Under the pieces are notes generated by a model. It ran no database searches. It was not told the DNA's origin and saw nothing but the letters and a program-made list of their open reading frames with translations. Of a DNA stretch of 58,047 nt, positions 22,847-58,040 are shown one piece after another; the stretch's first letter is position 1; every line of letters begins with the position of its first letter. A program made the position numbers and the translations under genes. This DNA comes from a virus, in IMG/VR virus record IMGVR_UViG_3300048582_000144, positions 1 through 58,047 of that record. One strand, 5' to 3'.

Positions 22847-22847
22847 T

Positions 22848-23213: not shown

Positions 23214-23217
23214 CGCT

Positions 23218-23508: not shown

Positions 23509-23516
23509 TCATTGGA

Positions 23517-23528: not shown

Positions 23529-23549
23529 TTCAGCCGCCGGAATGGCCCC

Positions 23550-25709: not shown

Positions 25710-25735
25710 AATCCTCAACCAACCTCGAAACCGCC

Positions 25736-27207: not shown

Positions 27208-27213
27208 TCCACC

Positions 27214-28026
27214 ATGGCAAACAAGATCAAATCACGCAGAGGCACCGCAGCCGCATGGACATCCGCAAACCCGGTCTTGCTGGCCGGAGAGATCGGCATC
27301 GAGACCGACACCCGGAGGATGAAGGTTGGCGATGGAGCGACCGCATGGACAGCGCTGGATTACTTCCGCGATGACGGGGTTGATTGGGGAGACATCACGG
27401 AAATCCCCGCGCCTGTCACGGCGCTTTCCGGCACGAACACTGGAGACGAAACCACCGCCAGCATCCTCGAAAAGCTGGAAGGCGCGGCGGAAGATGCGAA
27501 CAAGATCGGCGCGGAGTATCTGCCGGATGCGCTGACTTGGGCAAGCGGAGATCCGAACATCCCTGAAATACTCACCATCACCGGGATCACTACTCCGGCT
27601 GATAGTGATCCTTTGACGCTAACTCGTGGTGAAGACATTTCAGGAGTTCCGTCATGGGAATTAGTGGGCGGTCTGGAATGGACAATGAGCTATGTTGAAG
27701 GGACATGGAGCTTAGCTGACGGAGACGCCGCTGTATATGCTGCTTCTAAAACGGATGCTGCCGGAACTCCGGTAGGTCTGACAGGCTGGACCATCAGCGC
27801 CGGAGCAGGCCAGCCAGTAATAACCGGAGACAATCCCGCTGGTGATTTCCTCGGCCAATGGTGCCGCGCAGCCACCGCCTGGTGGCAGTGGAACGGCACG
27901 GCATGGGTGCCGCGGTTTTCGGTGGATGGAGATTCCATCGCCTACAACGCCACGCTTTCTGCCTACCGCAAAATTGTTGTCTCCGGAGCCGATGGCTCTG
28001 AAATTATTACCATTTCCGCATTATGA
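27214..28026 (+). CDS. Tail fibre protein with hyaline-repeat N-terminus
   Basis: A 270-residue fibre-type protein. The start, KSRRGTAAAWTSANPVLLAGEIGIETDTRRMKVGDG, is the anchor domain common to phage fibres and tail-spike precursors (RRGTxxxWxxxNPVLxxGExGxExDTxxxKxGDGxxxWxxL). The middle contains a hinge ALSGTNTGDETTASILEKL and a Trp-rich segment QWCRAATAWWQWNGTAW resembling the small W-box domain of such fibres. Together with the neighbours it forms a receptor-binding module. Its stop overlaps the next gene (ATGA). Confidence 0.75.
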   Translation: MANKIKSRRGTAAAWTSANPVLLAGEIGIETDTRRMKVGDGATAWTALDYFRDDGVDWGDITEIPAPVTALSGTNTGDETTASILEKLEGAAEDANKIGAEYLPDALTWASGDPNIPEILTITGITTPADSDPLTLTRGEDISGVPSWELVGGLEWTMSYVEGTWSLADGDAAVYAASKTDAAGTPVGLTGWTISAGAGQPVITGDNPAGDFLGQWCRAATAWWQWNGTAWVPRFSVDGDSIAYNATLSAYRKIVVSGADGSEIITISAL

Positions 28027-29786
28027 AATCCTATATTCTAACACTATTACTTATCGGCTGCCAGGCATTCGGGCAGACTGCCATCAAACCGCTCACGCAA
28101 GAGAACATCGAGGCGGCGATCACGGATCCGGCGGGATTTCGTGGCGGGCTTGGAATTTTGGAAGATGACAATGCGGCGATCAACGCTGCCATCGCCACTG
28201 ACCCGCAGGCCAGCCGGGATGCGTTAAATGTCCCCATGATTTCTGTTAAGGATTTCGGCGCGGTTGGGGACGGAGTGGCGGATGACACTGAAGAGTTTGA
28301 AGCGGCGGTTGCAGCGGCAAAAGTCGCAAAGTGGCCGCTTTTTGTCCCCGCAGGAAACTACCTGATCACTGATCCGATTGTGCTCGATTGGGAGGCAGCT
28401 TCGATCATAGGAGTCTCGGCAGGGATTGGCGGCAGTAACATCATAACTGCGTCCACCACGAATCCAATCATCAGCATCCCCGGCGATTACAATCATGTAA
28501 AAGTCCAGAACCTCCGAATCACAGGCCCTGGGCGTGCGACATCGACAGGTAGAGGGATTGACATCCGTGGGGATCTTGGAGGCGCGACGAACGTGGATTT
28601 CGGGCTAATCGCCGATTGTAGAATCATCGGATTTGACGTCGGAATCTACTGGCGAGGTGTGGCGAACTCTACCATTGATAGGACTGGCGTTGAAAATTGC
28701 CGACTTGCGGTCCATTCGCTAGGAAATAACAACTCAAACACGTTTCAGAATTGTGCTTTTGTGGCCGCAAACGGATCGTTGGATGCGGTGGGTGTGTGGC
28801 TTGAGGCTGGGCGCGGAACCGTGATTGAATCGTGTGATTTCGGCGGGCCGACAATGGCGCTTTGCGTGGAAGATAACGCGGTCGCCACGGCAATCAATGG
28901 CGGTCAATGGGAGGCTTACGGAACGGGACTGAAAACCACGTCAGACACATCCGTTCCGGTGGTTTCTGGCGTGATGATCGGATATTTCGGCACACCATCA
29001 GCCGACCGCTATTCGATGGATTTGCAAGTCGGCGCGACTGTCATCGGCGGGCTACAATCCATCGTCAGCACTACGTACGGTTCAGCGATCAAAATGCGCT
29101 CAACAATCACAAGAGGTTTGCGCGTTTTTGGAAGCGCTGGATCACTCAAAGCCGATTTCTTCGGTTCGAGTGGCACCGTTTATAATCACACGGCATGCGT
29201 TAGCGGATCGCTTGGACTTATGACCCAAGCCAACGGTGAGTCTGCTTCGGCCAACACTCTAGGCGTCGGATGGCTTCGGGAATCTCCAGGATCGAATCTG
29301 ATTTACAATTTTGGAGTGCGGGATGCTTCCAACAACTACGCATGGGCGAATTTGTTGGATTTTCACTTCCTAAAAGCTGCTGCATCGAATTCAAATCCCG
29401 CATTCATCGGCGTGGCAAATTCCTTCACTGCATCGCAGTCAATCAGCAATGCGATCGCGCCGAATCTCAAGTTTCACACAGGGACAGATACGCTCCAGCA
29501 AAGGTTTGCACTGGGAATTGCAACGGCTTCGGATCAATTTGTTGTCGGAGCGGTGGCAAATGATACATGTCTGGTGGCTAGGTCGGGAGGGAGCATGACT
29601 TTCTCGGTGGGTCCGACTTCAACAAATCAAGCTATCGTCGGACGATTTAAGGCATCTGGCCGATTCAACTTAACATCGTCCGCAGTTCCTAACTACGCGG
29701 ATGACACCGCAGCCGACGCGGCCCTTTCGAGTGGCGACCTTTACACGACCACTGCGGGCGGGCGAACAGTTTACCGCAAACCATAA
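28023..29786 (+). CDS. Tail-spike, pectate-lyase-superfamily beta-helix, with secretion-like leader
   Basis: A 587-residue protein. After a leader, the segment ISVKDFGAVGDGVADDTEEFEAAVAAAK (about residues 75-100) is the classic start of the pectate-lyase-3 right-handed beta-helix found in polysaccharide-degrading tail-spikes. Coil-like repeats follow up to about residue 330 (NLRITGPGRATS, IADCRIIGFDVGIYWRG). The C-terminal half is beta-rich. Oddly the N-terminus MKSYILTLLLIGCQAFGQ looks like a bacterial signal peptide with a lipobox (LIGC), unusual for a virion protein assembled in the cytoplasm. A later start is possible but none is obvious before the folded domain. Confidence 0.8.
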   Translation: MKSYILTLLLIGCQAFGQTAIKPLTQENIEAAITDPAGFRGGLGILEDDNAAINAAIATDPQASRDALNVPMISVKDFGAVGDGVADDTEEFEAAVAAAKVAKWPLFVPAGNYLITDPIVLDWEAASIIGVSAGIGGSNIITASTTNPIISIPGDYNHVKVQNLRITGPGRATSTGRGIDIRGDLGGATNVDFGLIADCRIIGFDVGIYWRGVANSTIDRTGVENCRLAVHSLGNNNSNTFQNCAFVAANGSLDAVGVWLEAGRGTVIESCDFGGPTMALCVEDNAVATAINGGQWEAYGTGLKTTSDTSVPVVSGVMIGYFGTPSADRYSMDLQVGATVIGGLQSIVSTTYGSAIKMRSTITRGLRVFGSAGSLKADFFGSSGTVYNHTACVSGSLGLMTQANGESASANTLGVGWLRESPGSNLIYNFGVRDASNNYAWANLLDFHFLKAAASNSNPAFIGVANSFTASQSISNAIAPNLKFHTGTDTLQQRFALGIATASDQFVVGAVANDTCLVARSGGSMTFSVGPTSTNQAIVGRFKASGRFNLTSSAVPNYADDTAADAALSSGDLYTTTAGGRTVYRKP

Positions 29787-29791
29787 CACCC

Positions 29792-30292
29792 ATGCCTCTC
29801 CGATACATCACACAAAGCCAGACCTTCCAGCAGTCCGTGGAGCTTCTCGGACTTGGACTCGCCGCCGTCGTCGCATTCCTGAACAACCTACTCGACGAGC
29901 AGTCTTTTGATCGTCTGACCGGACGCCATGGCGCACTGTTCTTCATGGCGGTGGCACTGATCCTTTTTTGGAATCAAAACCGCGTGAACGCGAAACGCCA
30001 GGCGGAGCACCTGATCCAAGCAGAGAAGCGCGAGGACGAGCGCAGGAAAGCGGAAGAGGCGGCACGCAAAGAGGAAAACGCCGCAAGGGAGCTTCGCCAC
30101 AAGGAGGCGATGGCGGTGCAGGAAAAAGCTCTTGCTGGAGTCCATGCACTCGCCGCCGAGGGGATTAAGGCCCAACTGCGGGCATCGGGAGCCATGGAGC
30201 GCGTGGACGCGACGATGAAAGCGCAGACGAACGAGATTTGCGAGCGGTTAGAGAAGATTGAATTGAGCGTGAACAAGTGTCCGAAGATATGA
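29792..30292 (+). CDS. Holin-like membrane protein with coiled coil
   Basis: A 166-residue protein with two probable membrane helices near the N-terminus (VELLGLGLAAVVAFLNNLL, then GALFFMAVALILFW), followed by a long charged coiled coil rich in Lys/Arg/Glu (QAEKREDERRKAEEAARKEENAAREL). Two TM helices next to an endolysin cluster fit a class-II-type holin, with the coiled coil in the cytoplasm. It could instead be a spanin-like or regulatory membrane protein. It opens the lysis cassette and overlaps the next gene (ATGA). Confidence 0.6.
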   Translation: MPLRYITQSQTFQQSVELLGLGLAAVVAFLNNLLDEQSFDRLTGRHGALFFMAVALILFWNQNRVNAKRQAEHLIQAEKREDERRKAEEAARKEENAARELRHKEAMAVQEKALAGVHALAAEGIKAQLRASGAMERVDATMKAQTNEICERLEKIELSVNKCPKI

Positions 30293-30669
30293 ATCCATTC
30301 CCCGAGGACATTGACTGCAAGGTGGCCGGAATGATCGACGGCCGGCGTCATATCCTCGTCTTGATGCCGTTCCGGTGTATCACTTCTCTCGGGGTAATTG
30401 TTGTGCCAGCAAACACCCTTTGCGACGGAGCATCCATCCCGCGCATCATGTGGCCAATCATAGGCCATCCACTTGACGAATACCTCGAAGATGCGGTTCT
30501 TCATGACTTCCTTTATTCTCCAACCAACACCGATTTTTCCCGCGCCGAGGCAGATTTGATTTTTCGCGAAACCATGTGGAATCGAGACATTTCACGCCCC
30601 AAACTCATCGCCATGTATGCCGCCGTCAGGGCTTTTGGATGGCGATCATTCCAAGGACAGCCGCAATGA
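30289..30669 (+). CDS. DUF1353-family phage protein
   Basis: A 126-residue protein with the DUF1353 hallmark VVPANTLCDGASIPRIMWPIIGHP, followed by EDAVLHDFLYSPTN and the helix SRAEADLIFRETM. The family is frequent in phage lysis or tail regions. Its function is unknown to me. The conserved Cys, Asp and His positions might bind a metal. Translationally coupled on both sides (ATGA overlaps at 30289 and 30666), so it is made with the holin-like protein and the membrane-anchored protein. Confidence 0.82.
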   Translation: MNPFPEDIDCKVAGMIDGRRHILVLMPFRCITSLGVIVVPANTLCDGASIPRIMWPIIGHPLDEYLEDAVLHDFLYSPTNTDFSRAEADLIFRETMWNRDISRPKLIAMYAAVRAFGWRSFQGQPQ

Positions 30670-31148
30670 AAACCATCCCCTACAACATGCCTCGCCGCCC
30701 GAGATCCACTGGCGACCTACTCATCTCCCTCCTGCAAGCCATCATCGTCTTCTCGCTCATCGTCTGGGCTACCGCCGGAGCCGGACAATACCGCGTGTCG
30801 TGGGACGCGCACCCCGAACTATCAGTCATGCGCTTCAACGTCTATAAGCTCGACGGCGCTGCCAGGATCTTCCTCGGTTCATCCACCACCCCGGAGCTGC
30901 AAGTTGAGGCCGCGCCGGGAGACTCTATCATCGTCACCGCATGGAACGGGATGGAGTCTGAGCCATCCGCGCCGGTTGTCATTCCCGCCGCAGCCGTTCC
31001 CCCACAACCACCCACCGGGCTCCGCGTGGTGGAAATCCAGACCAGTTCCAACCTCGCCGACTGGAAACCCCTCGCCTACGTGCCGCTTCACGACGGCAGC
31101 CCGCAGCGGTTCGTCCGCGCCACCATCACCACCATCCCGCAGCCATGA
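30666..31148 (+). CDS. Membrane-anchored protein in lysis cassette, 160 residues
   Basis: A single N-terminal membrane helix (about residues 18-38: LLISLLQAIIVFSLIVWATAGAG) precedes a beta-rich exported part. Its sequence (YRVSWDAHPELSVMRFNVYKL, VEIQTSSNLADWKPLAYVPL) resembles fibronectin-III/SSNLxxW modules of Verrucomicrobiota-type surface proteins. Located between DUF1353 and the endolysin, so it might serve as a spanin-like envelope protein or as a host-derived surface protein. Overlaps both neighbours by 4 bases. No cysteine lipobox is seen. Confidence 0.6.
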   Translation: MKTIPYNMPRRPRSTGDLLISLLQAIIVFSLIVWATAGAGQYRVSWDAHPELSVMRFNVYKLDGAARIFLGSSTTPELQVEAAPGDSIIVTAWNGMESEPSAPVVIPAAAVPPQPPTGLRVVEIQTSSNLADWKPLAYVPLHDGSPQRFVRATITTIPQP

Positions 31149-31735
31149 GCAAAACCACCGACAACGAAGCATTCGCCCTTCACGCCCAGACCACCCTCAA
31201 AGCGCGTGGTCACTACCTCGGCGATATTGATGGATGGGCCGGTCCCATTACCCGCAAAGCCTTCGACGCTGCACTGCCGCCACCCGCGACAACCAAACCC
31301 CCGGCACCCACCGGGAACGCCGCACGACTCTACGCGCAGGCACTCAGAGACAAAGGGCTCAAGGAAACATCGGGCAGCGCATCCACTCCACGCATCCGCC
31401 GCGCCATCATGGAAGCCGCATCATGGCTCGACCCGGACGACAGCGTGACAGCATGGTGCGGTTGCATCATGGGCTTGTGGTGCTCCGAAGTCGGAATCAC
31501 TCCACCCGCTGAATACTTCCGGGCCGCTAACTGGCTCAACATCGGGAAGCCCGTGGACATCAGCAAGGCCAAGCAGGGTGACATCGTGGTGCTCTCACGC
31601 AGCGGAGGAAACCACGTCGCGCTCTACCACTCACACAGCGCCACCCACATCACGCTCCTCGGCGGGAACCAGAAAAATGCCGTGAATCTCTCGACCTATT
31701 CCCGCGATTCACTGCGGGGGATTAGGGCGGTGTGA
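31145..31735 (+). CDS. Endolysin: peptidoglycan-binding plus NlpC/CHAP-like peptidase
   Basis: A 196-residue lysin. Residues about 8-45 (FALHAQTTLKARGHYLGDIDGWAGPITRKAFDAAL) form a PG_binding_1 domain. After a Pro-rich linker the catalytic domain shows SVTAWCGCIMGLWCSEVG (Cys nucleophile), NHVALYHSHSA (His) and GGNQKNAVNLSTYS. This matches the TIGR02594/CHAP-like amidase or endopeptidase found in phages, which cleaves the peptide bridges of peptidoglycan. No signal peptide, so it needs the holin. Last gene of the lysis cassette. 69 bases without a gene follow, holding a late motif. Confidence 0.83.
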   Translation: MSKTTDNEAFALHAQTTLKARGHYLGDIDGWAGPITRKAFDAALPPPATTKPPAPTGNAARLYAQALRDKGLKETSGSASTPRIRRAIMEAASWLDPDDSVTAWCGCIMGLWCSEVGITPPAEYFRAANWLNIGKPVDISKAKQGDIVVLSRSGGNHVALYHSHSATHITLLGGNQKNAVNLSTYSRDSLRGIRAV

Positions 31736-31758
31736 TACACGCCCAAAAACTTCCCACG

Positions 31759-31770
31759 TTGCGCCCGTAT
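31759..31770 (+). promoter_or_regulatory. Late-gene motif TTGCGCCCGTAT, copy 4
   Basis: Exact motif followed by TTCAGCCC, ending 34 bases before ATG 31805 of the scaffold-like gene. Preceded by CCCACG, as the copy at 2879 is preceded by CCCACACG. Confidence 0.7.
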
Positions 31771-31804
31771 TTCAGCCCGAAAATGAGGCATAGTCTCACG
31801 GGCG

Positions 31805-32887
31805 ATGACAGCCCCGCAACAAGACCCAGGCGAACAGCCGGGTATCGAGCAAACAGCCACAGCCGCACCGGTGAGCGAACAGCCGCCAGCCGCAGCACAA
31901 GCCCCGCCATCGTTGGATGACATGTCCGCTGACGAGATCCTTGATCTCCTCACCAGCGAGACCCCGCCACAAAGCGAGCCGACACCATCGGAAGAATCCA
32001 CCCCGACCGCAGAGGAACCCGCGCCCCAAAGCACGGCCAATCCCGCAGACGAGGAACCGGACGACACCGATGACACCGACCCGCCCGCCGCCCAAACAGG
32101 AACCAAAGCACCCGGCAGATTGTCGGTGCGAGCCCTTCCCGCAGAGCAGCAGTTGGAAACCGCAGACGCACTTGCCATGGTGCGTGCTGGCGAAGCCGTT
32201 GACCTCCTGGATGCCCTCCAGAAGATGCGCGGCACCCGCCAAGCACCCGCCCCGGCAGATCCGTTCGACGGGCAACCGCAAGCCAAGCAGGAAGACACCG
32301 CTCCCACCCCGCAAGATGTCGCCGCCATCGACAAGGAAATCGCCGATCTACGCGCACAGCGGGACGACGCGAAAGCCCGCTACGAGGACGACGAAAAGGA
32401 TGCTCTTACCCTCAAGATCGAAGACGCGATCATTCGCCGCAACGATGCCAAGATGGAAGCCGCTTTCCGCGCACAGCAGGAGGCCGCCAGCAAGCAATCG
32501 TTCGAGGCGCAATATGACTCCGCCGTTTCCGAACTCGAAGCGAAGTTTCCTGATGTCCTGAATGAGGACGCGCCCTTCACCAAGATCCTCGGTGATCGAA
32601 TGGACGCAGCCCGCTCGCGCAAAGCGCCGGAGCTGAAAGATCCACGATACATCCTGAAGCTGGCTGAAGAAACAGCGGACTTGCTCGGAATCGCCAAGGC
32701 AGCACCGGCAACACCAACGACACCCGCCAAGCCATCCGTTTCCGCCCCACCTCCGGCACCACGCCGGGCCAATGGCGCAGCAGTGGCACCCGCGCACCCG
32801 GCGGCCAACCGGCCCACGCAAGATGAAGTGCTGGCACGAATCGACCAATCGTCCATGGCGGAACTCCTCGAAGCCCTTTCGACGTGA
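31805..32887 (+). CDS. Scaffolding protein
   Basis: A 360-residue, low-complexity acidic protein immediately upstream of the coat gene, the normal place for a capsid scaffold. The first about 110 residues are Pro/Gln/Ala/Glu/Thr-rich and disordered (with DDMSADEILDLLTSE). A helical middle follows (DKEIADLRAQRDDAKARYEDDEKDALTLKIEDA), then a C-terminus of Ala/Pro linker and a helix-loop (QDEVLARIDQSSMAELLEAL) that would bind coat protein. Scaffolds rarely show sequence similarity, so the call rests on position and composition. Confidence 0.75.
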   Translation: MTAPQQDPGEQPGIEQTATAAPVSEQPPAAAQAPPSLDDMSADEILDLLTSETPPQSEPTPSEESTPTAEEPAPQSTANPADEEPDDTDDTDPPAAQTGTKAPGRLSVRALPAEQQLETADALAMVRAGEAVDLLDALQKMRGTRQAPAPADPFDGQPQAKQEDTAPTPQDVAAIDKEIADLRAQRDDAKARYEDDEKDALTLKIEDAIIRRNDAKMEAAFRAQQEAASKQSFEAQYDSAVSELEAKFPDVLNEDAPFTKILGDRMDAARSRKAPELKDPRYILKLAEETADLLGIAKAAPATPTTPAKPSVSAPPPAPRRANGAAVAPAHPAANRPTQDEVLARIDQSSMAELLEALST

Positions 32888-32931
32888 GGCCGCCGCAACC
32901 TTCAAAATCTATCCAATAGAAAACAATTCCA

Positions 32932-34536
32932 ATGCCCAACACGACCAATCCAAACAGCTCCAGCCTCACCGAGATTCTGGCGATGGCTCCCAACGCCCGC
33001 CAAGACCTCATCACAGCGTTCTTCCACAAGGCCGCCTGTCAGTATAGCCCGCTGATGAACTTCACCAGCACCTTCGATCCCAACGCCGAAGGCAAGGGAG
33101 TCACCAGTATCTTCGCCGAGAAGACCGACCTTCGCGCCGGGGGCAAGAGCCGCGTCCACTTCAACACCATCGGCATGCCTGCTGGTAACGGAGCCATCGG
33201 AGCGCAAACCCTCGTCGGGAAAGAATCCAAGGCAACCATCGGCACCTACGCCGCAACGGTTGACTGGGTTCGTGATGCAACCTCGCTCACCCAGGACGAA
33301 ATCGAGATGATCGAGGCCGGTCGCAACCTCAAAGGCGTGCTGCTTCAGATGCTCGCCAAGAAGATGACCCTGACCAAGGACAACCACATGTTCCAGCGTC
33401 TCAAGCTGTCTGCCGTGGCCGCCAATACCTACCGTGTCGGCAACCGCTCCAGCACCAACGGATTGACCCCTGACGACGTGCTGTCCACGTCGGTTTCCAA
33501 CATCTGCCGCAGCAAGCTCAACACCTTGGGCGCGACTCCGCTGATGAAGAACACCGCCAAGGCCGGCTGCCCGATCAACAAGTTCATGCTGTTCGCCTCG
33601 GACACCGCGTTCTTGCCTATCCGCAACAGTTCGCCGTTCACCACCGCCATCACCGCCGACGTTCGCGGTCGCGACAACGCCAACTTCACTGGCGAGATCC
33701 TCGACTGGCAGGGCAACCCGCACTACGAGTTCCCCATTACCGACATGGCATGGGACGGCTACAAGGGCGGCCCCTTGCTTGCCAAGGCTGTTGTCAGCGT
33801 TGCACAAACCCCGGCATCCAGTTCCGGCGCTCCCAAGCTGATCGTGAACGCGGACAACACCGACACCCGTTACTTCGAGTGGTTCGATGGTCATCCGTTC
33901 CAGTTCAGCCGCCAAGAAGCGCTGCCCAACCTTAGCGCCAACGAATACTACTTCTGGGCGTGCAACCCGGACGGAAGCCGCGTGTTCGGAGCCTACAACG
34001 GCCTCAACGCCGCGCTTGGCGGGAACCAAATCGCCATCACCAAGATCCTCTGCCCTGGTGGAGTTTCTGGAACCACGGTGGACCACGTGACCGTTGGTGA
34101 CCTGAACGTCGGCAGCACAGCGGCCTATGCTTCCGGCACCGCTGGCGTCTTCACTGTTGACGGTGACATTGCTTCAGGAAAACAGGGGGTTGATACCGCT
34201 GGACCTGACGGCACGTTCGTCCTGACCGACACCATCCAAGACGGCGCGGTGATCCTGCAAGCCAACAGCCAAGGCACGGTTTACAGCCGCTCCTTCATGT
34301 TCGGTTCGATGGCCGCCATGTTCGCCCACGGCCGCATCAAGATGGCCGAAATCGAACAGAACTTCGATTACGACTACGTGATGGGCAAAGGCTTCCAAAT
34401 GATCTTTGGAACCGGCGTCGCGCTCGACCCCAACGGGGTGCCCAACGGCTACATCCTCATCGAGCACGCAATCGACGTGGTGGGCTACCCCTGCCCGACC
34501 TCGTTTGCAACGACTGTGACGGCCTATCCAGCATAA
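32932..34536 (+). CDS. Major capsid protein, N4 gp56/DUF4043-like
   Basis: A 534-residue coat protein candidate with the expected place (portal and lysis cassette upstream, scaffold immediately before it). The N-terminus LTEILAMAPNARQDLITAFFHKAACQYSPLMNF, the segment VDWVRDATSLTQDEIEMIEAGRNLKGVLLQMLAKKM, and the later YVMGKGFQMIFGTG resemble the N4 gp56/DUF4043 coat family of podoviruses. This is the longest beta/alpha protein of the structural block and has no membrane segments. A start codon 44 bases after the scaffold stop fits co-expression. Two terminators follow it. Confidence 0.78.
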   Translation: MPNTTNPNSSSLTEILAMAPNARQDLITAFFHKAACQYSPLMNFTSTFDPNAEGKGVTSIFAEKTDLRAGGKSRVHFNTIGMPAGNGAIGAQTLVGKESKATIGTYAATVDWVRDATSLTQDEIEMIEAGRNLKGVLLQMLAKKMTLTKDNHMFQRLKLSAVAANTYRVGNRSSTNGLTPDDVLSTSVSNICRSKLNTLGATPLMKNTAKAGCPINKFMLFASDTAFLPIRNSSPFTTAITADVRGRDNANFTGEILDWQGNPHYEFPITDMAWDGYKGGPLLAKAVVSVAQTPASSSGAPKLIVNADNTDTRYFEWFDGHPFQFSRQEALPNLSANEYYFWACNPDGSRVFGAYNGLNAALGGNQIAITKILCPGGVSGTTVDHVTVGDLNVGSTAAYASGTAGVFTVDGDIASGKQGVDTAGPDGTFVLTDTIQDGAVILQANSQGTVYSRSFMFGSMAAMFAHGRIKMAEIEQNFDYDYVMGKGFQMIFGTGVALDPNGVPNGYILIEHAIDVVGYPCPTSFATTVTAYPA

Positions 34537-34555
34537 GCCTCTGTGTAGTGTGCTT

Positions 34556-34594
34556 GGGCGGGGCGGTGTGAGAAATCCGCCGTCCCGCCTTTTC
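34556..34594 (+). terminator. Rho-independent terminator behind the coat gene
   Basis: GGCGGGGCGG (34557-34566) pairs with CCGCCGTCCCGCC (34577-34589) with one mismatch/bulge, followed by TTTT. It insulates the highly expressed coat gene. Confidence 0.85.
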
Positions 34595-34604
34595 CTTTGA
34601 AACA

Positions 34605-34632
34605 CCTGTCCCTCGCGAGGGGGACGGGTTTT
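34605..34632 (+). terminator. Second terminator, part of a 52-bp repeat
   Basis: CCTGTCCC (34605-34612) pairs with GGGACGGG (34621-34628) with a T-G wobble, followed by TTTT. It is embedded in a 52-bp element (34599-34650) that recurs at 48400-48451 with about 46 matches, including a conserved flank (...GGCGAAAGGCAACAC) beyond the hairpin. A terminator duplicated with its flank is unusual. Confidence 0.8.
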
Positions 34633-34657
34633 CCGGGCGAAAGGCAACACCTACACC

Positions 34658-35002
34658 ATGACTATCTGGAAAACAAACATCACAGACCCTAACCTGAAAA
34701 TCGTCACCATGGATTTTCGGGTGCAATCAGATTTCAACGAAGCTCCGTTCCTCGCCAAGACAAGACAGGTTATAGGCATCGGGTTTGAAACCAAAAGAGA
34801 CGGCGCACATCTCCGGGCAGCCGTCGAAATACGCTCGGAGCCATCGCCCGAAGAACTCCAAGAAGCAATCGGTTTGTTATTCAAAGCATACACTTCGCCC
34901 GAAAGCGATGACGTGAAAGTGGTTCGCGGACATGTCGAACTTACCCCAAACGTGATGCAGACCACCGCCCTGATTGAGCGCACCAAAACAGAAGCCAAGT
35001 AA
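34658..35002 (+). CDS. Hypothetical protein, 114 residues
   Basis: A small beta-rich protein (WKTNITDPNLKIVTMDFRVQSDF; AKTRQVIGIGFETKRDG) of no recognised family. It starts just after the second copy of a terminator/flank element, so its transcription probably begins between 34633 and 34658 or depends on read-through. Position after the coat gene fits a head-completion or minor structural protein. Confidence 0.7.
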   Translation: MTIWKTNITDPNLKIVTMDFRVQSDFNEAPFLAKTRQVIGIGFETKRDGAHLRAAVEIRSEPSPEELQEAIGLLFKAYTSPESDDVKVVRGHVELTPNVMQTTALIERTKTEAK

Positions 35003-35004
35003 CC

Positions 35005-35568
35005 ATGAATATCCCGCAACTCGTCTCCAAGTCGTCCCTCCAAGCCATCGACACCAGCAAGGACACCCACGCCGTGCGTGTCGTCCTGCACGATGCCAAC
35101 AACCCCGGAGCCTATCGCCTCGCCTGCCACTCGCGCACCTACCTGTTCGAGAAGAACAGCAGCATCGGCAAACACTCCCTCGACATCCCGGTTTCCGTGT
35201 GGATGCACGGCACCGCAGGCGGGCGATTCCAGACCGCAGCTTCAATCTCCGATGACTTCCGCACGGCATCGGGCGCGTCGCTTTCGTTTCAGGTGATCCC
35301 GCTCCGTGAGGCCGCCGCCACCGAAGGCCCCGGCGAAGTGGTTGCGCTGCTTCGCAAACTTCTCAGCGGCATAGGAGCCCCCGCCCCCGTGCAACACACG
35401 TTCGCCATGCTTGAGGCAGGCGTGTCTTTCCAGCAGATCAGGAAGTTCGTCGAAGACGTGCTTGAGGCAATCGACGACGAGGAACCCGAAGAAACCCCCG
35501 CGCAAGCCAAGGCCCGCAAGATGCGCGAGGCCAAGGCCGCGAAGAAAGCACAACTCGCCACCGCGTGA
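35005..35568 (+). CDS. Hypothetical head/structural protein, 187 residues
   Basis: No recognised family. The N-terminal 130 residues look like a folded beta domain (SKDTHAVRVVLHDANNPGAYRLACHSRTYLFEKN). The C-terminal part is helical and ends in a Lys/Ala-rich tail (AQAKARKMREAKAAKKAQLATA) that could bind DNA. Separated from the preceding gene by only 2 bases. Possibly a minor head protein. Confidence 0.72.
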   Translation: MNIPQLVSKSSLQAIDTSKDTHAVRVVLHDANNPGAYRLACHSRTYLFEKNSSIGKHSLDIPVSVWMHGTAGGRFQTAASISDDFRTASGASLSFQVIPLREAAATEGPGEVVALLRKLLSGIGAPAPVQHTFAMLEAGVSFQQIRKFVEDVLEAIDDEEPEETPAQAKARKMREAKAAKKAQLATA

Positions 35569-35600
35569 ACCAATCCCAGCACAAACCAGAAACCAAACAG

Positions 35601-35840
35601 ATGAATCCCGAACAAAGAGCCCGCCTGCTTGCCGAAACTCAGGAAACCGCCGCCCGCTTGAACAAGCTCAATGCCTTCATGGCCACCGACGCATTTCCAA
35701 AGCTCCCACGCGAGGACAAGGACCTGCTTTACTCCCAACAGCGGGTGATGAGCGAATACGTCCAAATCCTCGGCAAGCGGCTTGAGCGGGCAGGCCAGCA
35801 GTTCGAGCACGCCAAACCACAAGATCCCCCTGCCCAATGA
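35601..35840 (+). CDS. Hypothetical helical protein, 79 residues
   Basis: A 79-residue predicted helical protein (EQRARLLAETQETAARLNKLNAFMATDAF; EDKDLLYSQQRVMSEYVQILGKRLERAGQ) that resembles small phage crcB-like or Fil-type helical bundle proteins of unknown role. ATG 35601 is preferred to a GTG at 35565 (12 residues longer, overlapping the previous stop). Its own stop overlaps the next start (ATGA). Confidence 0.72.
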   Translation: MNPEQRARLLAETQETAARLNKLNAFMATDAFPKLPREDKDLLYSQQRVMSEYVQILGKRLERAGQQFEHAKPQDPPAQ

Positions 35841-35980
35841 TCCGAAAACGCCCCAAGTTCCAACGCGTCATCCGCTGGCCGATCAACTTCTGGCGAGTGT
35901 TCCGCATCCCCGGAGTGCTGAGTATCAAGCAACGCGCGTTCATCGCCTTCAACATGGCAAACGCCATCGCAAAACACTGA
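35837..35980 (+). CDS. Small basic protein, 47 residues
   Basis: A 47-residue basic peptide (MIRKRPKFQRVIRWPINFWR) with a hydrophobic helix (VLSIKQRAFIAFNMANAIA), overlapping the preceding gene by 4 bases and ending 7 bases before the next gene. It fills the gap exactly and uses the same codon style, so I believe it is real. A tiny head or tail protein is possible. Confidence 0.6.
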   Translation: MIRKRPKFQRVIRWPINFWRVFRIPGVLSIKQRAFIAFNMANAIAKH

Positions 35981-35987
35981 CCCCACC

Positions 35988-36917
35988 ATGGACACCATCT
36001 ACGCCTGTTCCAAGATCCTCCTGACCCACTTCCCGCACGAGGAAAGGCAGATCCCCGACGACCCAGAGTTTCCCGACCGGAACGAAAGCGTGGTGGCGGC
36101 CATGAATGCCGCTCTCGAAGAGTGCTACGGCCAAGGCTCGCCGTGGATGCGCCAGGACGACCGGGGCGACCTCCTCCGCGCCCCGGCTACCGTCACCATC
36201 TCTGTCACCGAGGGTTCCCGCACCGGTGAGATCACCACCGGCTGGCAGGACTGGATGGCGGGATGCTCCATCGTCATCGACGGGCACGACATCGACAACC
36301 AAATCCGCGACGACAACGCCGACTGCACCCTCAAGTATCCCTACGGCGGCACCACCGGCAGCAAGACCGCCACCGTCTATCACGACTGCATCACCGTCAC
36401 TTCCGACGTTCTCACCATCCTTGAGCCCGTCCGAGTTGATGGCCGGCGGATACACCCGCTCGCCAACGGCCAATCAGTTCGCTCCCCCTACCACGTCCGC
36501 GACTACGGCATGCACCACCAGATTTACGCAGAGCCCAACATCGAGGCCCTGCGACTCTCCGCCCTCGCCGGGTTCGTCCGCGCATTCTCAGTCGAGACCT
36601 ACGCGCCAGATGAAGCGATGAACACCGTCCTTCGCATTCGCCTTCACGGCACCGTCAATGCCTCCGCCACCTTCGCCTACGCCGCGAAACTCAAAGCCCC
36701 GCGCATAACCTCCGCCAGCTCGCTCGAAGCCCCGCCCGTCCCTCACGATTTCGTTGCCAGCATTTTCCTTCCGGTCGCCAGGCAGAAGCTCACGGCCAGC
36801 CCCTTCTTCCGCGACCAGGCAGGCAGGGAGGAAATATCCGCCGCCTACGCCGAGGCGAAGAAGACGCTGGAGGCGATCAACCCGAAGACCCCTCGAACCT
36901 TCCGCTTCCAACCCTGA
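35988..36917 (+). CDS. Tail adaptor/tubular-type protein, 309 residues
   Basis: Soluble 309-residue protein starting MDTIYACSKILLTHFPHEERQIPDDPEFPDRNESVVAAMNAALEECYG, with an acidic/helical start that fits an adaptor subunit between portal and tail. The middle is beta-rich (GSRTGEITTGWQDWMAGCSIVIDG). The position, after the head genes and before the long repetitive tail protein, is where podoviruses encode the tail adaptor or tail-tube A protein. I cannot confirm a family. Confidence 0.55.
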   Translation: MDTIYACSKILLTHFPHEERQIPDDPEFPDRNESVVAAMNAALEECYGQGSPWMRQDDRGDLLRAPATVTISVTEGSRTGEITTGWQDWMAGCSIVIDGHDIDNQIRDDNADCTLKYPYGGTTGSKTATVYHDCITVTSDVLTILEPVRVDGRRIHPLANGQSVRSPYHVRDYGMHHQIYAEPNIEALRLSALAGFVRAFSVETYAPDEAMNTVLRIRLHGTVNASATFAYAAKLKAPRITSASSLEAPPVPHDFVASIFLPVARQKLTASPFFRDQAGREEISAAYAEAKKTLEAINPKTPRTFRFQP

Positions 36918-51637: not shown

Positions 51638-52258
51638 ATGACCACCCCATCACCAATCATCGTCTGCGGACTCCCTCGATGCGGATCCAGCCTCACCCTG
51701 CAAATGCTCGACGCCGCTGGCATCCGATGCGACGGCGAACACCCGACATTCGAGAGCGACCAGAAGCGCGTCCTCAAGCCCCGCACCGCAGAATACATCC
51801 GCGAGTGGCAGGACGGAGCCGTAAAGGTCCTCGAACCCCACGTCATGACCCTGCCGGAGGGATTCCACTATCGTTTCCTGTTCCTCACTCGGAGTCGCCG
51901 CCAGCAAGCGCTCTCGCAGTTGAAATTCATGCGACTGATTGGAGTGCTCACTGGACACGTCGATGACTACCAGATTGCCGAATACGAGCGGCGGTTGAGG
52001 GAAGACGAAGCGAAGTCACTGCAAGCCATCACCGGCCACATCGGGAGCGTGCTCAAGATCCGCTTCGAGGACCTGATTGCGCGGACGGAATCCGCCGTGG
52101 ACCGCATCGTATGGTTCCTGCAACTCACACCGGAGCAGAAGGAACAGATGATCGCCAAGGTTCGCCCGCGGTCGGTGTCGGTCTATCCCGGGATGCTGGA
52201 ACTGGAGCTGATTCAAGAGCGGGAAGCGGCGAGGGAGAAAGGAGGAGCGGAGTCATGA
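51638..52258 (+). CDS. Sulfotransferase-like P-loop protein
   Basis: A 206-residue protein with the 5'-phosphosulfate-binding-type loop IVCGLPRCGSSLTLQMLDAAG near the N-terminus, then the pattern FLFLTRSRRQQALSQLKFMRL and LKIRFEDLIARTE that matches the second (3'-PB) site of sulfotransferases. Many such small proteins act on unknown acceptors. The enzyme is unusual in a recombination operon. It may alter a host metabolite, carbohydrate or virion component. Coupled to the next gene by ATGA. Confidence 0.78.
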   Translation: MTTPSPIIVCGLPRCGSSLTLQMLDAAGIRCDGEHPTFESDQKRVLKPRTAEYIREWQDGAVKVLEPHVMTLPEGFHYRFLFLTRSRRQQALSQLKFMRLIGVLTGHVDDYQIAEYERRLREDEAKSLQAITGHIGSVLKIRFEDLIARTESAVDRIVWFLQLTPEQKEQMIAKVRPRSVSVYPGMLELELIQEREAAREKGGAES

Positions 52259-53857: not shown

Positions 53858-54207
53858 GCACCCGCCAAAAAGTGAACGACAAGTGGACCGTCTATGATCC
53901 GCCGTGGGTTGAGACCGTTCCCAACGAACCATTCCGCTACCGTGTGGAATCAAAATCGTTGTCGGACATTTTCCACTTCGTCGATCTCACCGCCCGCAAC
54001 GGTCACGGTCGTTGTTCCTGCGTATTTTTCCAAATGGTCGCCGAACCAAACTTCCGTCGGCATGGCAACTGGATTCCATACGCCCCTGGTCGCGAGGGAG
54101 TCAGTGAGTGCAAGCATATCCGCGCGGCCTTCGACCATTACCACCTCTACGTCACCTGCCCGATGCTCGCGTCATTCGCAGACGGGATTCCTAATACTTT
54201 ACATTGA
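53854..54207 (+). CDS. SWIM-type zinc-finger protein
   Basis: A 117-residue protein with the SWIM signature CxCx(n)CxH: RCSCVFFQMVA then ECKHIRAAFDHY, with a short insert between the pairs. SWIM fingers bind DNA or proteins. Such small SWIM proteins occur in phages and mobile elements. It overlaps its neighbours (ATGA and TTG/TGA), in the replication/recombination operon just before the RecU-like resolvase. Confidence 0.8.
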   Translation: MSTRQKVNDKWTVYDPPWVETVPNEPFRYRVESKSLSDIFHFVDLTARNGHGRCSCVFFQMVAEPNFRRHGNWIPYAPGREGVSECKHIRAAFDHYHLYVTCPMLASFADGIPNTLH

Positions 54208-54227
54208 AACCACTTTTGCCGCCCGCC

Positions 54228-54833
54228 ATGGTCCCCACATCACTCAAAGGAAAGGAATTCGAAACGCTGATTCTCGAAGCTGCAAGGCGCGAGGAAGCCA
54301 GTGGAGGATTGACTCTCTCTCGCTACGGCGTGCAAGGCGTCATCTTCGGGGGTAAGACTATTCTCGTCCCCTCACTTCCAGACTTTGATGGATGCTTGGC
54401 CGGCGGGCGGCAAATCATCATCGAGGCAAAGTGCATGCAGGGTGCTTCGTTCCCCCTCAATGACGACAAGTTCAAGAACCGACAGTATGCCCACATGGCA
54501 AAGCGTGCTGAGTTCGGCGCACTATGCTTCCTTCTAATCCACTTCGCGGAACGCCGTCTAATGTCCAAGAACGATCCGGGCATGACAATTGCCGTTCCCG
54601 TGAGTGCCCGCCATCCGTTCTGGATGCTATACGAACAAGGCGAACGCAAAAGCCTCCCGCGCGACGAAGCGCAATCCATTGGGCAAATCGTCCCTTGGAC
54701 CATCCCCAGAGGCTGCCGCAAAGCGCTCCCTGACCTTCTCTCGTTCCTGTGGCCGGAAGCCCGCAGTATCCAACTCGAAACAGCAAAACCAAGCTCTCCC
54801 CAGCCCGGCGAACTCCCCTTGGACAACGACTAA
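54228..54833 (+). CDS. Holliday-junction resolvase, RecU-like PD-(D/E)xK nuclease
   Basis: A 201-residue nuclease. The core motif is KEFETLILEAARR..., then the metal-binding LPDFDGCLAGGRQIIIEAKCMQGASF (D and E-x-K). FPLNDDKFKNRQYAHMAKRAEFGALCFLLIHF matches the RecU pattern (HQ..l...hGa...fllI.f). It probably cuts recombination intermediates. ATG 54228 is chosen over a TTG at 54204 that overlaps the preceding stop. A 94-residue gene follows after 4 bases. Confidence 0.82.
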   Translation: MVPTSLKGKEFETLILEAARREEASGGLTLSRYGVQGVIFGGKTILVPSLPDFDGCLAGGRQIIIEAKCMQGASFPLNDDKFKNRQYAHMAKRAEFGALCFLLIHFAERRLMSKNDPGMTIAVPVSARHPFWMLYEQGERKSLPRDEAQSIGQIVPWTIPRGCRKALPDLLSFLWPEARSIQLETAKPSSPQPGELPLDND

Positions 54834-54837
54834 GCCC

Positions 54838-55122
54838 ATGCACGCCGACCCAAACATATCGAATCCAAGCAGCAACGCCCCCGGCGTTGCATGCGGCGAC
54901 CTTGTTCTGGATTGCGATTTCTGCGGTAAGCCTGCCGAGTCCGTGGTAACTCATCAAGGCACAGGTAAAATATGGAGAGCCTGCACCGAGTGCATCGACA
55001 TCCGGCGCATGAGGCGGCGGTCTACGCCCTACAACGTAGAAATTATCCAGAACGATCAAGGCCATGCGATCCGGACCGGGAGCGCCGCGCCGCCAACACC
55101 CAGAACTAACGAATCACCCTGA
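54838..55122 (+). CDS. Zinc-ribbon-like protein at the edge of the array, 94 residues
   Basis: Contains LDCDFCGKPAESVVTHQGTGKIWRACTECIDIRRMRRRS: two CxxC pairs (CDFC, CTEC) forming a small zinc ribbon. It starts 4 bases after the resolvase stop and ends 3 bases before the short attC at 55125, so it is the last phage-operon gene before the cassette array, or itself a cassette gene. No family recognised. Confidence 0.7.
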   Translation: MHADPNISNPSSNAPGVACGDLVLDCDFCGKPAESVVTHQGTGKIWRACTECIDIRRMRRRSTPYNVEIIQNDQGHAIRTGSAAPPTPRTNESP

Positions 55123-55124
55123 AA

Positions 55125-55171
55125 ATCCAACAAGGGAGCGGGTCCGGGTCGCATGCGCTGCCTTGTTATGC
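55125..55171 (+). other. attC 1 (short)
   Basis: ATCCAAC (55125-55131) and GTTATGC (55165-55171) enclose AAGGGAGCG paired with CGCTGCCTT (one mismatch). The 15-base centre between the arms is unpaired. Forms the left boundary of the array. Confidence 0.75.
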
Positions 55172-55203
55172 TCTTCGAGAATCTCCGAAAACTATACGAC
55201 AAT

Positions 55204-55401
55204 ATGAAAAAATCAACACTCTACGCATTAATCCAAGGGGCCTCAATAGGTGTGGTTGTTCTCACGCTCGGGTATAATCCGCTGCAATGGGAGTGGTGGG
55301 CATTAATTATCTCGCTGAACGTAGCTTTGGTTTGCAGTTCTCTGCATAACGCCGATGTGGATACGCGGCGCGCAGATGCCCGAACTCAACAAGGCGGCTA
55401 G
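55204..55401 (+). CDS. Cassette 1: small membrane protein, 65 residues
   Basis: A 65-residue protein with two hydrophobic helices (TLYALIQGASIGVVVLTLGYNP; WALIISLNVALVCSSLHN). The C-terminal 17 residues are encoded by the following attC, as in many cassettes. ATG 55204 is preceded by an AT-rich leader. No family. Composition is less GC-rich than the phage genes. Confidence 0.6.
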   Translation: MKKSTLYALIQGASIGVVVLTLGYNPLQWEWWALIISLNVALVCSSLHNADVDTRRADARTQQGG

Positions 55402-55430
55402 TCGCCGTCGCCAGCATGCACTTGTTAGCG
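55344..55430 (+). other. attC 2
   Basis: GCATAAC (55344-55350) and GTTAGCG (55424-55430). ATGTGG on the left pairs with CCAGCAT (one extra base), then CGGCG with CGCCG. Positions 55347-55410 are identical to 57028-57091 (64 bp). Confidence 0.8.
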
Positions 55431-55474
55431 GGCCGAATTACCGAACAACTCAACCAACACGAAAGACCAAAACT

Positions 55475-55702
55475 ATGGGACAAGCCAAACAGCGCGGAAC
55501 CTTCGAGGAACGCCGCCAGCAATCAATCGACCGCGCCGAAGCGGAGAGGCTGGAACGCCAACGCAAGGAAGCGGAATGGTGGAACTCTCTCACCGACGAG
55601 CAAAAGGAAAACGTGCGCCAGAACCGCGCGCGCCGCGCCCGAAACATGCAGGCAATGGCCGCGTGGATGGGTCTTGGCTACTCACTCGGCGGGAGGTTCT
55701 AA
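55475..55702 (+). CDS. Cassette 2: small Arg/Glu-rich protein, 75 residues
   Basis: The N-terminus MGQAKQRGTFEERRQQSIDRAEAERLERQRKEAEWWNSLTDEQ is a recognisable style of small cassette and phage proteins (MGqakqRGtfeeR). The rest is a helical chain ending in GLGYSLGGRF. No function known. ATG 55475 fits the leader length after attC 2. Confidence 0.78.
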   Translation: MGQAKQRGTFEERRQQSIDRAEAERLERQRKEAEWWNSLTDEQKENVRQNRARRARNMQAMAAWMGLGYSLGGRF

Positions 55703-55706
55703 GTCC

Positions 55707-55821
55707 CGCTAACGCTCAAACTGAGCCATGCGGTTGCTTGGCGCGATCAGTGCCCGCACGCAGTGCGGAAATAGCACTGATCGTGACAAGCAATCGCATT
55801 GGCTCCAGTGCTTTGTTAGGC
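55707..55821 (+). other. attC 3 (long, well-folded)
   Basis: CGCTAAC (55707-55713) and GTTAGGC (55815-55821) with very long arms: GAGCC-ATGCGGTTGCTTG pairs with CAAGCAATCGCATTGGCTC, and GCGATCAGTGC with GCACTGATCG. One of the most convincing sites: textbook attC with L' carrying an extra C. Confidence 0.9.
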
Positions 55822-56178
55822 TCATTTTTCATTTAGCTCGTTGTTATGGCGTTCGATTTCTTTAAGGTATCCGCTTTCAGGACGATGCCTCTGCCTCAAT
55901 CGATTCATAATCTCTTCTCTATCGTCCTTTGATCGGGGTCGTTCTGGAAAAAAGTAGAAAATTGACCGGTAATACAGCTCGCTGGTGATACTCTCACGCG
56001 GTTTGTGGTCATGCGTGCTCTCGTATCCAATAATGTAGAGCGTGGAGTGTAATCCGGCGGGATATAAAATGGGACCACGCCTTGCGCCGACTGCGTTCGC
56101 GCCGGCAAAAATCGGAGCGGCAAGATACGCGAACCCCACGGCGGCGCACGTCAGGATGATTACGGCTCTGCGTTTCAT
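55822..56178 (-). CDS. Cassette 3: exported/membrane protein, reverse orientation
   Basis: A 118-residue protein encoded against the array direction. The N-terminal signal-anchor MKRRAVIILTCAAVGFAYLAAPIFAGA is followed by a polar chain (GYESTHDHKPRESITSELYYRSIFYFFPERPRSKDDR). The ATG at 56178 is just inside attC 4 (56185). The stop (55822-55824) touches the right half-site of attC 3. Antisense cassette genes are unusual and need their own promoter. No family. Confidence 0.72.
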   Translation of the reverse strand: MKRRAVIILTCAAVGFAYLAAPIFAGANAVGARRGPILYPAGLHSTLYIIGYESTHDHKPRESITSELYYRSIFYFFPERPRSKDDREEIMNRLRQRHRPESGYLKEIERHNNELNEK

Positions 56179-56184
56179 TCTTCT

Positions 56185-56311
56185 GCCTAACGTCAAAGGC
56201 CTGGCACCCCTGATCGGGAGCGAGCCTTCGACTGTGGTGTAAGGTTTATCATGCCAGTGGTCAATCGAACTCAAAGCGTATCAGGGGTTGTCCAGCGCCG
56301 GCTTGTTGGGC
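56185..56311 (+). other. attC 4
   Basis: GCCTAAC (56185-56191) and GTTGGGC (56305-56311). AGGCCTGGCACCCCTGAT pairs with ATCAGGGGTTGTCCAGCGCC with extra bases on the right. The middle about 70 bases form an open or branched loop. Confidence 0.85.
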
Positions 56312-56315
56312 TGTC

Positions 56316-56675
56316 TTATTGAGTCGGTCCATCGGCCACGAGTAAAGATGATCCTGCCTGTAGAACCAAGGCGGAATGGAACCAGATGAGAATCAATCCA
56401 AGACCGATTCCGCTAATCAATGTCCACCGCTTCGAGAACGATCCCGTATCATCGCGTTCACTCCAGATGGTGTATACTACCCATGCGAGTGGAATCAGAA
56501 TGAGGGTAAAACCCCAATTCCGGACGAATAGCATTAGAAGTGGAATATCGGCGAACTCATCAGGATATCCTCTGACTTTGAGTGTGACACCGAGCATGAG
56601 GGAACCTGTCATAATGATGCCCGCATGTAGGGCTCCAATAATCCTCTGCAATCGATACTCATCACGAAAGATCAT
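56316..56675 (-). CDS. Cassette 4: membrane protein, reverse orientation
   Basis: A 119-residue protein with several hydrophobic helices (GALHAGIIMTGSLMLGVTL; LLMLFVRNWGFTLILIPLAWVVYTIWSE; WTLISGIGLGLILIWFHSALVL). Encoded on the minus strand like cassette 3. No family recognised. AT-richer than the phage core. It fills the cassette between attC 4 and attC 5. Confidence 0.72.
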   Translation of the reverse strand: MIFRDEYRLQRIIGALHAGIIMTGSLMLGVTLKVRGYPDEFADIPLLMLFVRNWGFTLILIPLAWVVYTIWSERDDTGSFSKRWTLISGIGLGLILIWFHSALVLQAGSSLLVADGPTQ

Positions 56676-56697
56676 CGAGTTAGCTTTCTATTATTTT

Positions 56698-56755
56698 GCC
56701 CAACATCCGCCGATCAGACACGCCGTAGGCGTTGTCTGTATCGCGCTGGTTAGCA
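56698..56755 (+). other. attC 5
   Basis: GCCCAAC (56698-56704) and GTTAGCA (56749-56755). CGATCAGACACGCC pairs with GGCGTTGTCTGTATCG with extra bases on the right. Loop GTA. Confidence 0.85.
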
Positions 56756-56766
56756 CTCTTCTAAAA

Positions 56767-57030
56767 ATGAACTACTCCACAATAATCGAACGCATCTCTC
56801 CCGACTCACTCAGCCGGGTAGAATACCGTTACTGGCAGCGCGCCGAAATGCGCATGGAACTGGACTGGATAGTCCACCAGACGCGCCCTACAAAACGGCA
56901 CGGCTGGCGTCTTGAAAAACGCTGGTCGCGCCTGCAATCGCGAAACAACAACATGGCCAGAGAGGAGCCACCGCAGGACGTAAAAGACGAACTGCGCAAG
57001 AAAATCAACGATGCGCTCTCTTTCTGCTAA
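56767..57030 (+). CDS. Cassette 5: hypothetical helical protein, 87 residues
   Basis: An 87-residue charged helical protein (MNYSTIIERISPDSLSRVEYRYWQRAEMRMELDWIVHQTRPTK; LEKRWSRLQSRNNNMAREE). ATG 56767 lies 11 bases after attC 5. Stop TAA is inside the left half-site of attC 6. No family recognised. Confidence 0.7.
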   Translation: MNYSTIIERISPDSLSRVEYRYWQRAEMRMELDWIVHQTRPTKRHGWRLEKRWSRLQSRNNNMAREEPPQDVKDELRKKINDALSFC

Positions 57031-57111
57031 CGCCGATGTGGATACGCGGCGCGCAGATGCCCGAACTCAACAAGGCGGCTAGTCGCCGTCGTATCCCACG
57101 ACTTGTTCCCC
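57025..57111 (+). other. attC 6
   Basis: TGCTAAC (57025-57031) and GTTCCCC (57105-57111). GTGGATACG pairs with CGTATCCCAC (extra C on the right), then CGGCG with CGCCG. The left 64 bp match attC 2 exactly, but the right arms differ and both fold. Confidence 0.82.
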
Positions 57112-57140
57112 GTTGCCCGAATCACCGAAAGACTAACATC

Positions 57141-57953
57141 ATGGAAAACTCTAAAATCGAATGGACTCACCACACCTTCAATCCGTGGAACGGATGCACG
57201 AAGGTATCGCCCGGCTGTCTGCACTGCTACGCCGAAACGCTCATGGATACCCGATATGGTCGGGTGAAGTGGGGAAAAGGACAGCCACGCTCTCGCACGG
57301 CTGCTGAAAACTGGCGCAAGCCGAAGCAATGGAACAAAGCCGCCGACGGTGCCGCCGAGCGTCCACGGGTGTTCTGCGCGTCACTGGCTGACTGGCTCGA
57401 CGACGAGGTGCCGATTGAGTGGCTGGCGGATCTGCTGGAACTCATCGCGGCAACTCCGAATCTTGACTGGCTGCTACTCACCAAACGCCCCGAAAACTGG
57501 TATCGCCGCGTGAGCCTCGTAGATGGCGAAATGGCGGAAAGCTGGATCGACTGCATCGACATGCCCGAGCGTGGAACTATCCCCGAAAACGTATGGATCG
57601 GAACAAGCGCGGAAGATCAAACGCGATGGGATGAGCGGATGCCGCTACTCATGGAAATTCCCGCCCGCGTCCGCTTCGTGAGTGCGGAGCCGCTGGTCGG
57701 CAGAATCCACATGGGCGAGCTTCGCCCCGACTGGCTGATCGTCGGCGGTGAGAGTGGACCAGGCGCAAGGCCCATGGAACGCGAGTGGGTGGAAATCCTC
57801 TGCGACCAATGCGACGACCGAACCGCCTTCCACTTCAAGCAGTGGGGAGGCGTGGACAAGAAAGCCACTGGCCGCGTGCTGAATGGCCGGACATGGGACG
57901 AATTACCATCTTCGGGGAACGCCGAGTCCATCCACCCCGAATCGAAGCCTTAA
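57141..57953 (+). CDS. Cassette 6: DUF5131/phage Gp37-Gp68 family protein
   Basis: A 270-residue protein. KIEWTHHTFNPWNGCTKVSPGCLHCYAETL (Cys-x3-Pro-x-C-x2-C) is the hallmark of the phage Gp37/Gp68 (DUF5131) family, a radical-SAM-like protein with the CxxxxxxCxxC site that could hold an iron-sulfur cluster. Later motifs are LLLTKRPENW, IWIGTSAEDQTRWDERMPLL, RFVSAEPLVG and IVGGESGPGARPMEREWV. Function not established. It is the largest cassette gene. ATG 57141 lies 30 bases after attC 6. The stop overlaps attC 7. Confidence 0.88.
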   Translation: MENSKIEWTHHTFNPWNGCTKVSPGCLHCYAETLMDTRYGRVKWGKGQPRSRTAAENWRKPKQWNKAADGAAERPRVFCASLADWLDDEVPIEWLADLLELIAATPNLDWLLLTKRPENWYRRVSLVDGEMAESWIDCIDMPERGTIPENVWIGTSAEDQTRWDERMPLLMEIPARVRFVSAEPLVGRIHMGELRPDWLIVGGESGPGARPMEREWVEILCDQCDDRTAFHFKQWGGVDKKATGRVLNGRTWDELPSSGNAESIHPESKP

Positions 57954-58040
57954 AATCATGAACCAGAATCAAACTGAATCGAAGCCGCCAAGCGTTGAAG
58001 AACCCCGTAATGAGGGGTTGGATGGGACGCCTTGTTCGGC
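57914..58040 (+). other. attC 7
   Basis: GGGGAAC (57914-57920) and GTTCGGC (58034-58040). AGTCCATCCACCCC pairs with GGGGTTGGATGGGAC with extra bases on the right. It overlaps the DUF5131 stop codon. The last 7 bases of the window are the start of another cassette. Confidence 0.8.

Follow-up and report, generated by a model that had tools for sequence, protein, structure and literature searches.

The window, by which we mean the whole stretch of DNA analyzed, is the entire 58,047-bp IMG/VR contig IMGVR_UViG_3300048582_000144, which has no terminal repeat or overlap. Its genes with phage matches include a terminase, a portal, tail proteins, RecT, an exonuclease, RecU, and DnaB, and its major head protein has a weak match (phrog_334, 4.9e-4). 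The presence of terminase, portal, capsid (weak match), and tail genes in one record places it among the tailed phages (Caudoviricetes). Three of these genes frame the features described here, all on the + strand: a RecU-like Holliday junction resolvase at 54204 to 54833 (PF03838, 1.6e-7; phrog_843, 6.5e-14), which has no match among named phages; a DnaB-like replicative helicase at 536 to 2056 (PF03796, 2.5e-78; phrog_19, 1e-87); and the terminase large subunit (TerL) at 3470 to 5284 (phrog_2, 1.4e-18). Rfam and tRNA scans of the window gave no match. Between TerL and the portal gene, positions 5336 to 21889 form a single ORF of 5517 amino acids; Ochrobactrum phage POI1126 has a comparable giant gene at 21672 to 36197 of its record. 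In the recombination operon, the predicted product of the ORF at 51638 to 52258 has a start (PIIVCGLPRCGSSLTLQML) that resembles a sulfotransferase.

attC arrays and their phage setting

The window contains ten attC sites: eight at 54821 to 58040, one at 92 to 180, and one at 2324 to 2444. A scanner that required only AAC..GTT ends and a complementary L arm returned the first eight as a run of consecutive sites. Along this run, neighboring sites have heptamers that are exact complements of each other (7 of 7 bases at 7 of 7 boundaries); the longest such chain is 2 in 120 dinucleotide shuffles and likewise 2 in the rest of the window. With consecutive attC sites that have the arrangement R''-L''-L'-R' and an extrahelical base and that match at their R'/R'' boundaries, the run is an integron cassette array.

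A covariance model trained on 24 attC sites of other phages, with no window sequence included, recovers 9 of the 10 sites (E = 1.9e-11 to 0.028) and, in three control phages totaling 150 kb, gives no hit below E = 1.7. Its alignment contains 85 two-sided stem changes, compared with 32.6 after shuffling (0/500), and sliding the register destroys the signal. In order along array 1, the sites are a0 (54821 to 54910, E = 2.9e-7), which overlaps the RecU stop codon; a1 (55047 to 55171, E = 5.2e-9); a2 (55344 to 55430, E = 0.028); a3 (55707 to 55821, E = 2.1e-4); a4 (56185 to 56311, E = 4.8e-6); a5 (56698 to 56755), a short site that is the only one missed by the model and that fits the chain with 7/7 bases on both sides; a6 (57025 to 57111, E = 2.6e-10); a7 (57914 to 58040, E = 6.1e-9), after which the contig ends within the next cassette; and, across the contig break, a8 (92 to 180, E = 1.9e-11). 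The tenth site, b1 (2324 to 2444, E = 6.3e-7), belongs to a second, one-cassette array. Sites a2 and a6 have 64 identical bases in common (55347 to 55410 and 57028 to 57091), which make up one half of a2. These two sites carry unrelated genes, the other half of a2 diverges, and a2 is the weakest of the sites found by the model.

The aadA7 attC, taken from a class 1 integron, has an R'' that reads on as AACAA and an R' with GC in front of it (GCGTT). By this comparison, the canonical polarity of all of the window sites is that of the - strand, which corrects the + strand reading of the first-pass annotation; the covariance model was built in + strand orientation, and the reversal leaves positions unchanged. 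The attI side of an array is therefore its right-hand end in + coordinates. At that end, both arrays terminate at a copy of the same attI-like site, one at 488 to 530, which forms the canonical first-cassette boundary of array 1, and a near-duplicate at 2783 to 2825, both on the - strand. The sequence has 2 matches in the window, with 0 expected by chance. Read on the - strand, these sites end in ATAATTCTCT|GTT. The corresponding boundary in other phages is mostly AATNANACT|GTT, as is the intI-proximal boundary in chromosomal integrons of bacterial genomes related to the Verrucomicrobial metagenome-assembled genome (MAG) described below. Judged by this resemblance, the two window sites are attI-like and are candidate attI sites.

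Array 1 begins at RecU, reaches the right-hand end of the contig, and resumes at the left-hand end, where it is followed by DnaB and TerL. In relatives, the gene order is RecU, accessory genes, DnaB, and TerL. This order unites the right and left ends of the window and puts the contig break inside the array. Further cassettes, even an intI, could lie in this gap. The first-pass annotation had described seven attC sites at 55125 to 58040 with matching boundary heptamers, forming genuine integron cassettes within a phage genome without an integrase in the record. All seven sites exist, their heptamers match at every boundary, the array lies between RecU and DnaB, and we found no IntI. The first of its sites is real but starts at 55047, with R'' (CCAGAAC) and L'' lying upstream of position 55125, and the annotation missed a0, a8, the second array, and both attI-like sites. 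We class the window as an integron array carried by a phage, with no intI in cis.

Cassette genes and their orientation

Each cassette carries one gene, as the first-pass annotation had said, but most of the window cassettes depart from the usual layout of a gene followed by its own attC. In array 1, the ORF of cassette 0 (54838 to 55122, + strand), which is weakly zinc-ribbon/Lar-like (PF14354, E = 0.0066, below cutoff), is one of several cassette ORFs that open inside their own attC. Cassette 1 (55153 to 55401, + strand) encodes a small protein that looks membrane spanning, and cassette 2 (55355 to 55702, + strand) encodes a small charged protein; neither has a Pfam match. They are followed, after the two exceptions described below, by cassette 5 (56767 to 57030, + strand) and by cassette 6 (57141 to 57953, + strand), which encodes a DUF5131 protein of the phage Gp37/Gp68 family (PF07505, 4.2e-79; phrog_2045, 7e-84). 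A distant DNA search of the array region against named phages gave only short weak matches, chiefly to this DUF5131 gene. Beyond the contig break, positions 1 to 91 (+ strand) hold the 3' portion of a cassette gene, which has a hydrophobic stretch, and the array 1 cassette gene on the attI side (216 to 525, + strand) is phrog_419-like, with R' GTTCTCC and R'' GGAGAAC matching at 7/7 bases. The array 2 cassette gene lies at 2457 to 2819 (+ strand; R' GTTAGCC and R'' GGCTAAC, 7/7). The two window cassettes in canonical orientation are cassette 3 (55822 to 56274), which has homologues of 40% and 34% identity in related bacterial genomes, and cassette 4 (56316 to 56675), which encodes a membrane-like protein; both genes are on the - strand. 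For one cassette protein, there was no match among plasmids, and its homologues in two related bacterial genomes lie outside recognizable arrays.

When orientation is called from the longest ORF of each cassette, the gene is inverted relative to attC in 44 of 49 clear cases in phage arrays (44:5) and in only 3 of 33 cases in chromosomal arrays of related Verrucomicrobial genomes (3:30), a contrast with a Fisher p of 6e-14. Since crossover takes place in the canonical R', an inverted unit consists of an attC followed by its gene. In the phages examined, the inverted cassette genes thereby point the same way as the neighboring phage genes. The cassettes of relatives carry a C5 cytosine methylase, two N6/N4 methylases, PAPS-reductase-like proteins, and a DNA polymerase beta-like protein, and a role of such cargo in modification and counter-restriction is plausible.

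Related phages and integron integrases

A 59,213-bp relative in a Verrucomicrobial MAG is circular as judged by its 141-bp direct terminal repeat. It is syntenic with the window over RecT, the exonuclease, RecU, DnaB, TerS, TerL, the giant protein, the portal, and the capsid, and it has three attC clusters: an inverted one at 1753 to 2715, one in the RecU-DnaB interval, and one in the DnaB-TerL interval. Matches to attC (E ≤ 0.01) are present in 12 of 16 related viral records, which is a rough rate because the records are not all independent, some of them coming from one and the same phage, and because several are incomplete pieces. Two phages that are 99.93% identical over 13.3 kb differ in that one is without a 367-bp unit, missing exactly from crossover to crossover; the junction reads TCCGCTGAA|CGCCTAAATCC, and the shorter version is a contig that begins 10 nt before it. 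This precise presence or absence of a cassette between near-identical phages suggests recent mobility and is at most an indirect sign of recombination activity.

The host of the window phage is probably a member of the Verrucomicrobia, on the basis of one MAG contig and of attC similarity. Site a3, the attC of the canonically oriented cassette 3, scores 36 against bacterial attC sites and 10 against phage attC sites, with a shuffle maximum of 16, and is thus of the chromosomal Verrucomicrobial type, while six other window sites are clearly nearer to phage attC sites. This suggests that a3 was captured from, or exchanged with, a host integron, and no other observation points to such exchange as strongly. 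No prophage of the window lineage was seen among 141 related genomes. One relative with attC sites has an ORF resembling an ordinary phage tyrosine integrase (L001, 2106 to 3296), which suggests that some members of the lineage may be temperate.

Neither the window record nor the circular relative yielded an IntI, and the record has no intI next to attI, the mark of a complete integron. It does have at least two attC sites with no neighboring intI, as in a cluster of attC sites lacking an integrase (CALIN), with a contig gap inside the array. In contrast, a sister phage (IMGVR_UViG_3300025476_000005) has an intact IntI adjoining an attI-like site, followed by TerS and TerL, so that here intI does lie next to a candidate attI (L022/L044). 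This IntI (L041, 858 to 1829) scores 287 bits against a cutoff of 265, and its nearest solved PDB chain is IntI4 (1e-53). Its relatives at 69 to 75% identity sit in other phage types, one of them with a transposition gene, and chromosomal IntIs, found in 38 of the 141 related genomes, share no more than 47% identity with it. In a first tree, eight viral rows stood apart from sixteen bacterial rows (support 100/100), and a larger tree placed nine viral IntIs in one clade (100/99). The larger tree also placed some IntIs from viral contigs among the bacterial ones; a single clade of all viral IntIs is therefore rejected, and only the clade of nine stands.

Several other observations concern these integrases and their surroundings. 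TerL of the IntI-bearing sister phage (L041, 3945 to 6629) matches in two pieces and appears to have an intein-like interruption. On contig 3300049015_000020 (L095, 339 to 4698), ten attC sites form an exact chain beside another viral IntI. A 3.5-kb IntI contig in the MAG of the circular relative has no strong attC beside IntI, and one related bacterial genome (G048 C1; L074, L075) has three integron-integrase-like genes.

Interpretation and comparison with known systems

Bacteria trade genes, including those for antibiotic resistance, by way of swappable gene cassettes, and integrons are usually regarded as bacterial systems that mobile elements carry accidentally. The reading that we consider probable is that of a tailed-phage genome, nearly complete and circularly permuted, whose replication/recombination module holds two integron platforms. 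Each platform is made up of an attI-like site and attC cassettes that are mostly attC first. An integron integrase would cut at G|TT, excising and inserting cassettes. Since the record has no IntI, the enzyme would have to come in trans, presumably from an IntI-bearing sister phage or a host chromosomal integron. After insertion at attI, attC-first units with an inverted gene would be read with the phage operon and could be cotranscribed with it, and host-type cassettes, with the gene before its attC, would likewise be picked up.

The alternative that survives best, although we judge it improbable, is an ordinary CALIN, that is, a piece of a host chromosomal integron that is passively carried and has no continuing function in the phage. 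It would account for a record without intI and for the resemblance of a3, and possibly a5, to chromosomal attC sites, and published work on Vibrio phages describes capture of this passive kind (PMC9892861). Against it stand arrays that recur at corresponding places in 12 of 16 related records, the same attI-like site in both window arrays, a majority of phage-type attC sites in the window, gene orientation opposite to that of chromosomal arrays, and an intact IntI kept in sister phages. The first-pass annotation of a single integrase-less array is correct as to the missing IntI and incomplete as to the second array, the attI-like sites, and the IntI beside such a site in a sister phage. An assembly chimera, or a prophage/chromosome boundary, that joins a phage to a chromosomal integron had been a concern from the outset, and the contig does end inside an array and has no terminal overlap. 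This concern is largely removed, and we regard such a junction as very unlikely: the array resumes at the other contig end and leads into DnaB and TerL, and relatives, including the complete circular one with its three attC clusters, carry arrays between the same genes. Finally, although folded intergenic inverted repeats are common in phages, the chance that those seen here are hairpins of another kind, such as terminators, whose likeness to attC is fortuitous is negligible given the exact R'/R'' matching between successive sites, the extrahelical base, the covariation, and the model E values with clean controls.

Beyond the window, some phages appear to run a gene-capture system of their own. 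We lean, with more reserve, toward the broader view that phages have taken over one branch of integrons and use it as an organ devoted to gene capture. In this view, the branch has a viral IntI clade that spans several phage types, attI sites and arrays lie at fixed places in the replication module, attC-first cassettes are read with the phage operon, intI-less phages use the enzyme of a sister phage or host, and cassettes are shuttled into and out of bacterial integrons. If this is true, integrons would have a third setting beside the chromosomal and mobile ones, namely, a phage lineage that has an IntI clade, attI, and reversed cassettes of its own. Such a lineage would also provide a direct cell-to-cell route for cassettes and a source of the cassette pool that can be tested, and it would explain the reshuffling of accessory genes, such as those for DNA methyltransferases, in some phages.

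Carriage of attC sites and CALINs by phages is itself known: Qi et al. (2023) found integrons and their components, CALINs included, in 21 phages and showed that phage attC sites recombine with IntI1 (PMC9892861). Their phage CALINs, like the window, are attC arrays without an integrase in phage genomes, but they come from scattered cases, and those in Vibrio phages are fragments captured from the host integron (PMC9892861). In contrast, the window lineage keeps its arrays at corresponding places, together with attI-like sites; most of its cassette genes are inverted, and sister phages have IntIs of phage type. With its attI-like sites, and with an IntI beside such a site in a sister phage, the window is more than a CALIN. 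The limited set of papers searched describes no phage lineage that combines an IntI clade of its own with attC-first cassettes, and this combination appears to be new.

Genomes related to the MAG have chromosomal integrons that resemble those of the phages in their intI-attI-attC geometry and in an attI similar to the candidate attI of the phages. One window attC is of their type, whereas their cassettes have the gene and then attC (30:3) and phage cassettes have attC and then the gene (44:5). A class 1 integron (IntI1/aadA7, plasmid record) has attC architecture and cassette boundaries in common with the window and differs in gene orientation and in its nonphage location; its IntI1 and the sister-phage IntI share 42% identity. 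The reverse integron of Treponema denticola shares with the phages the transcription of intI and cassette genes in the same direction (PMC7691350). There, however, the gene stop lies in R'', which gives a gene followed by attC, and it is intI that is reversed (PMC7691350), whereas the phages keep the standard order of intI, attI, and attC and have the gene reversed inside the cassette.
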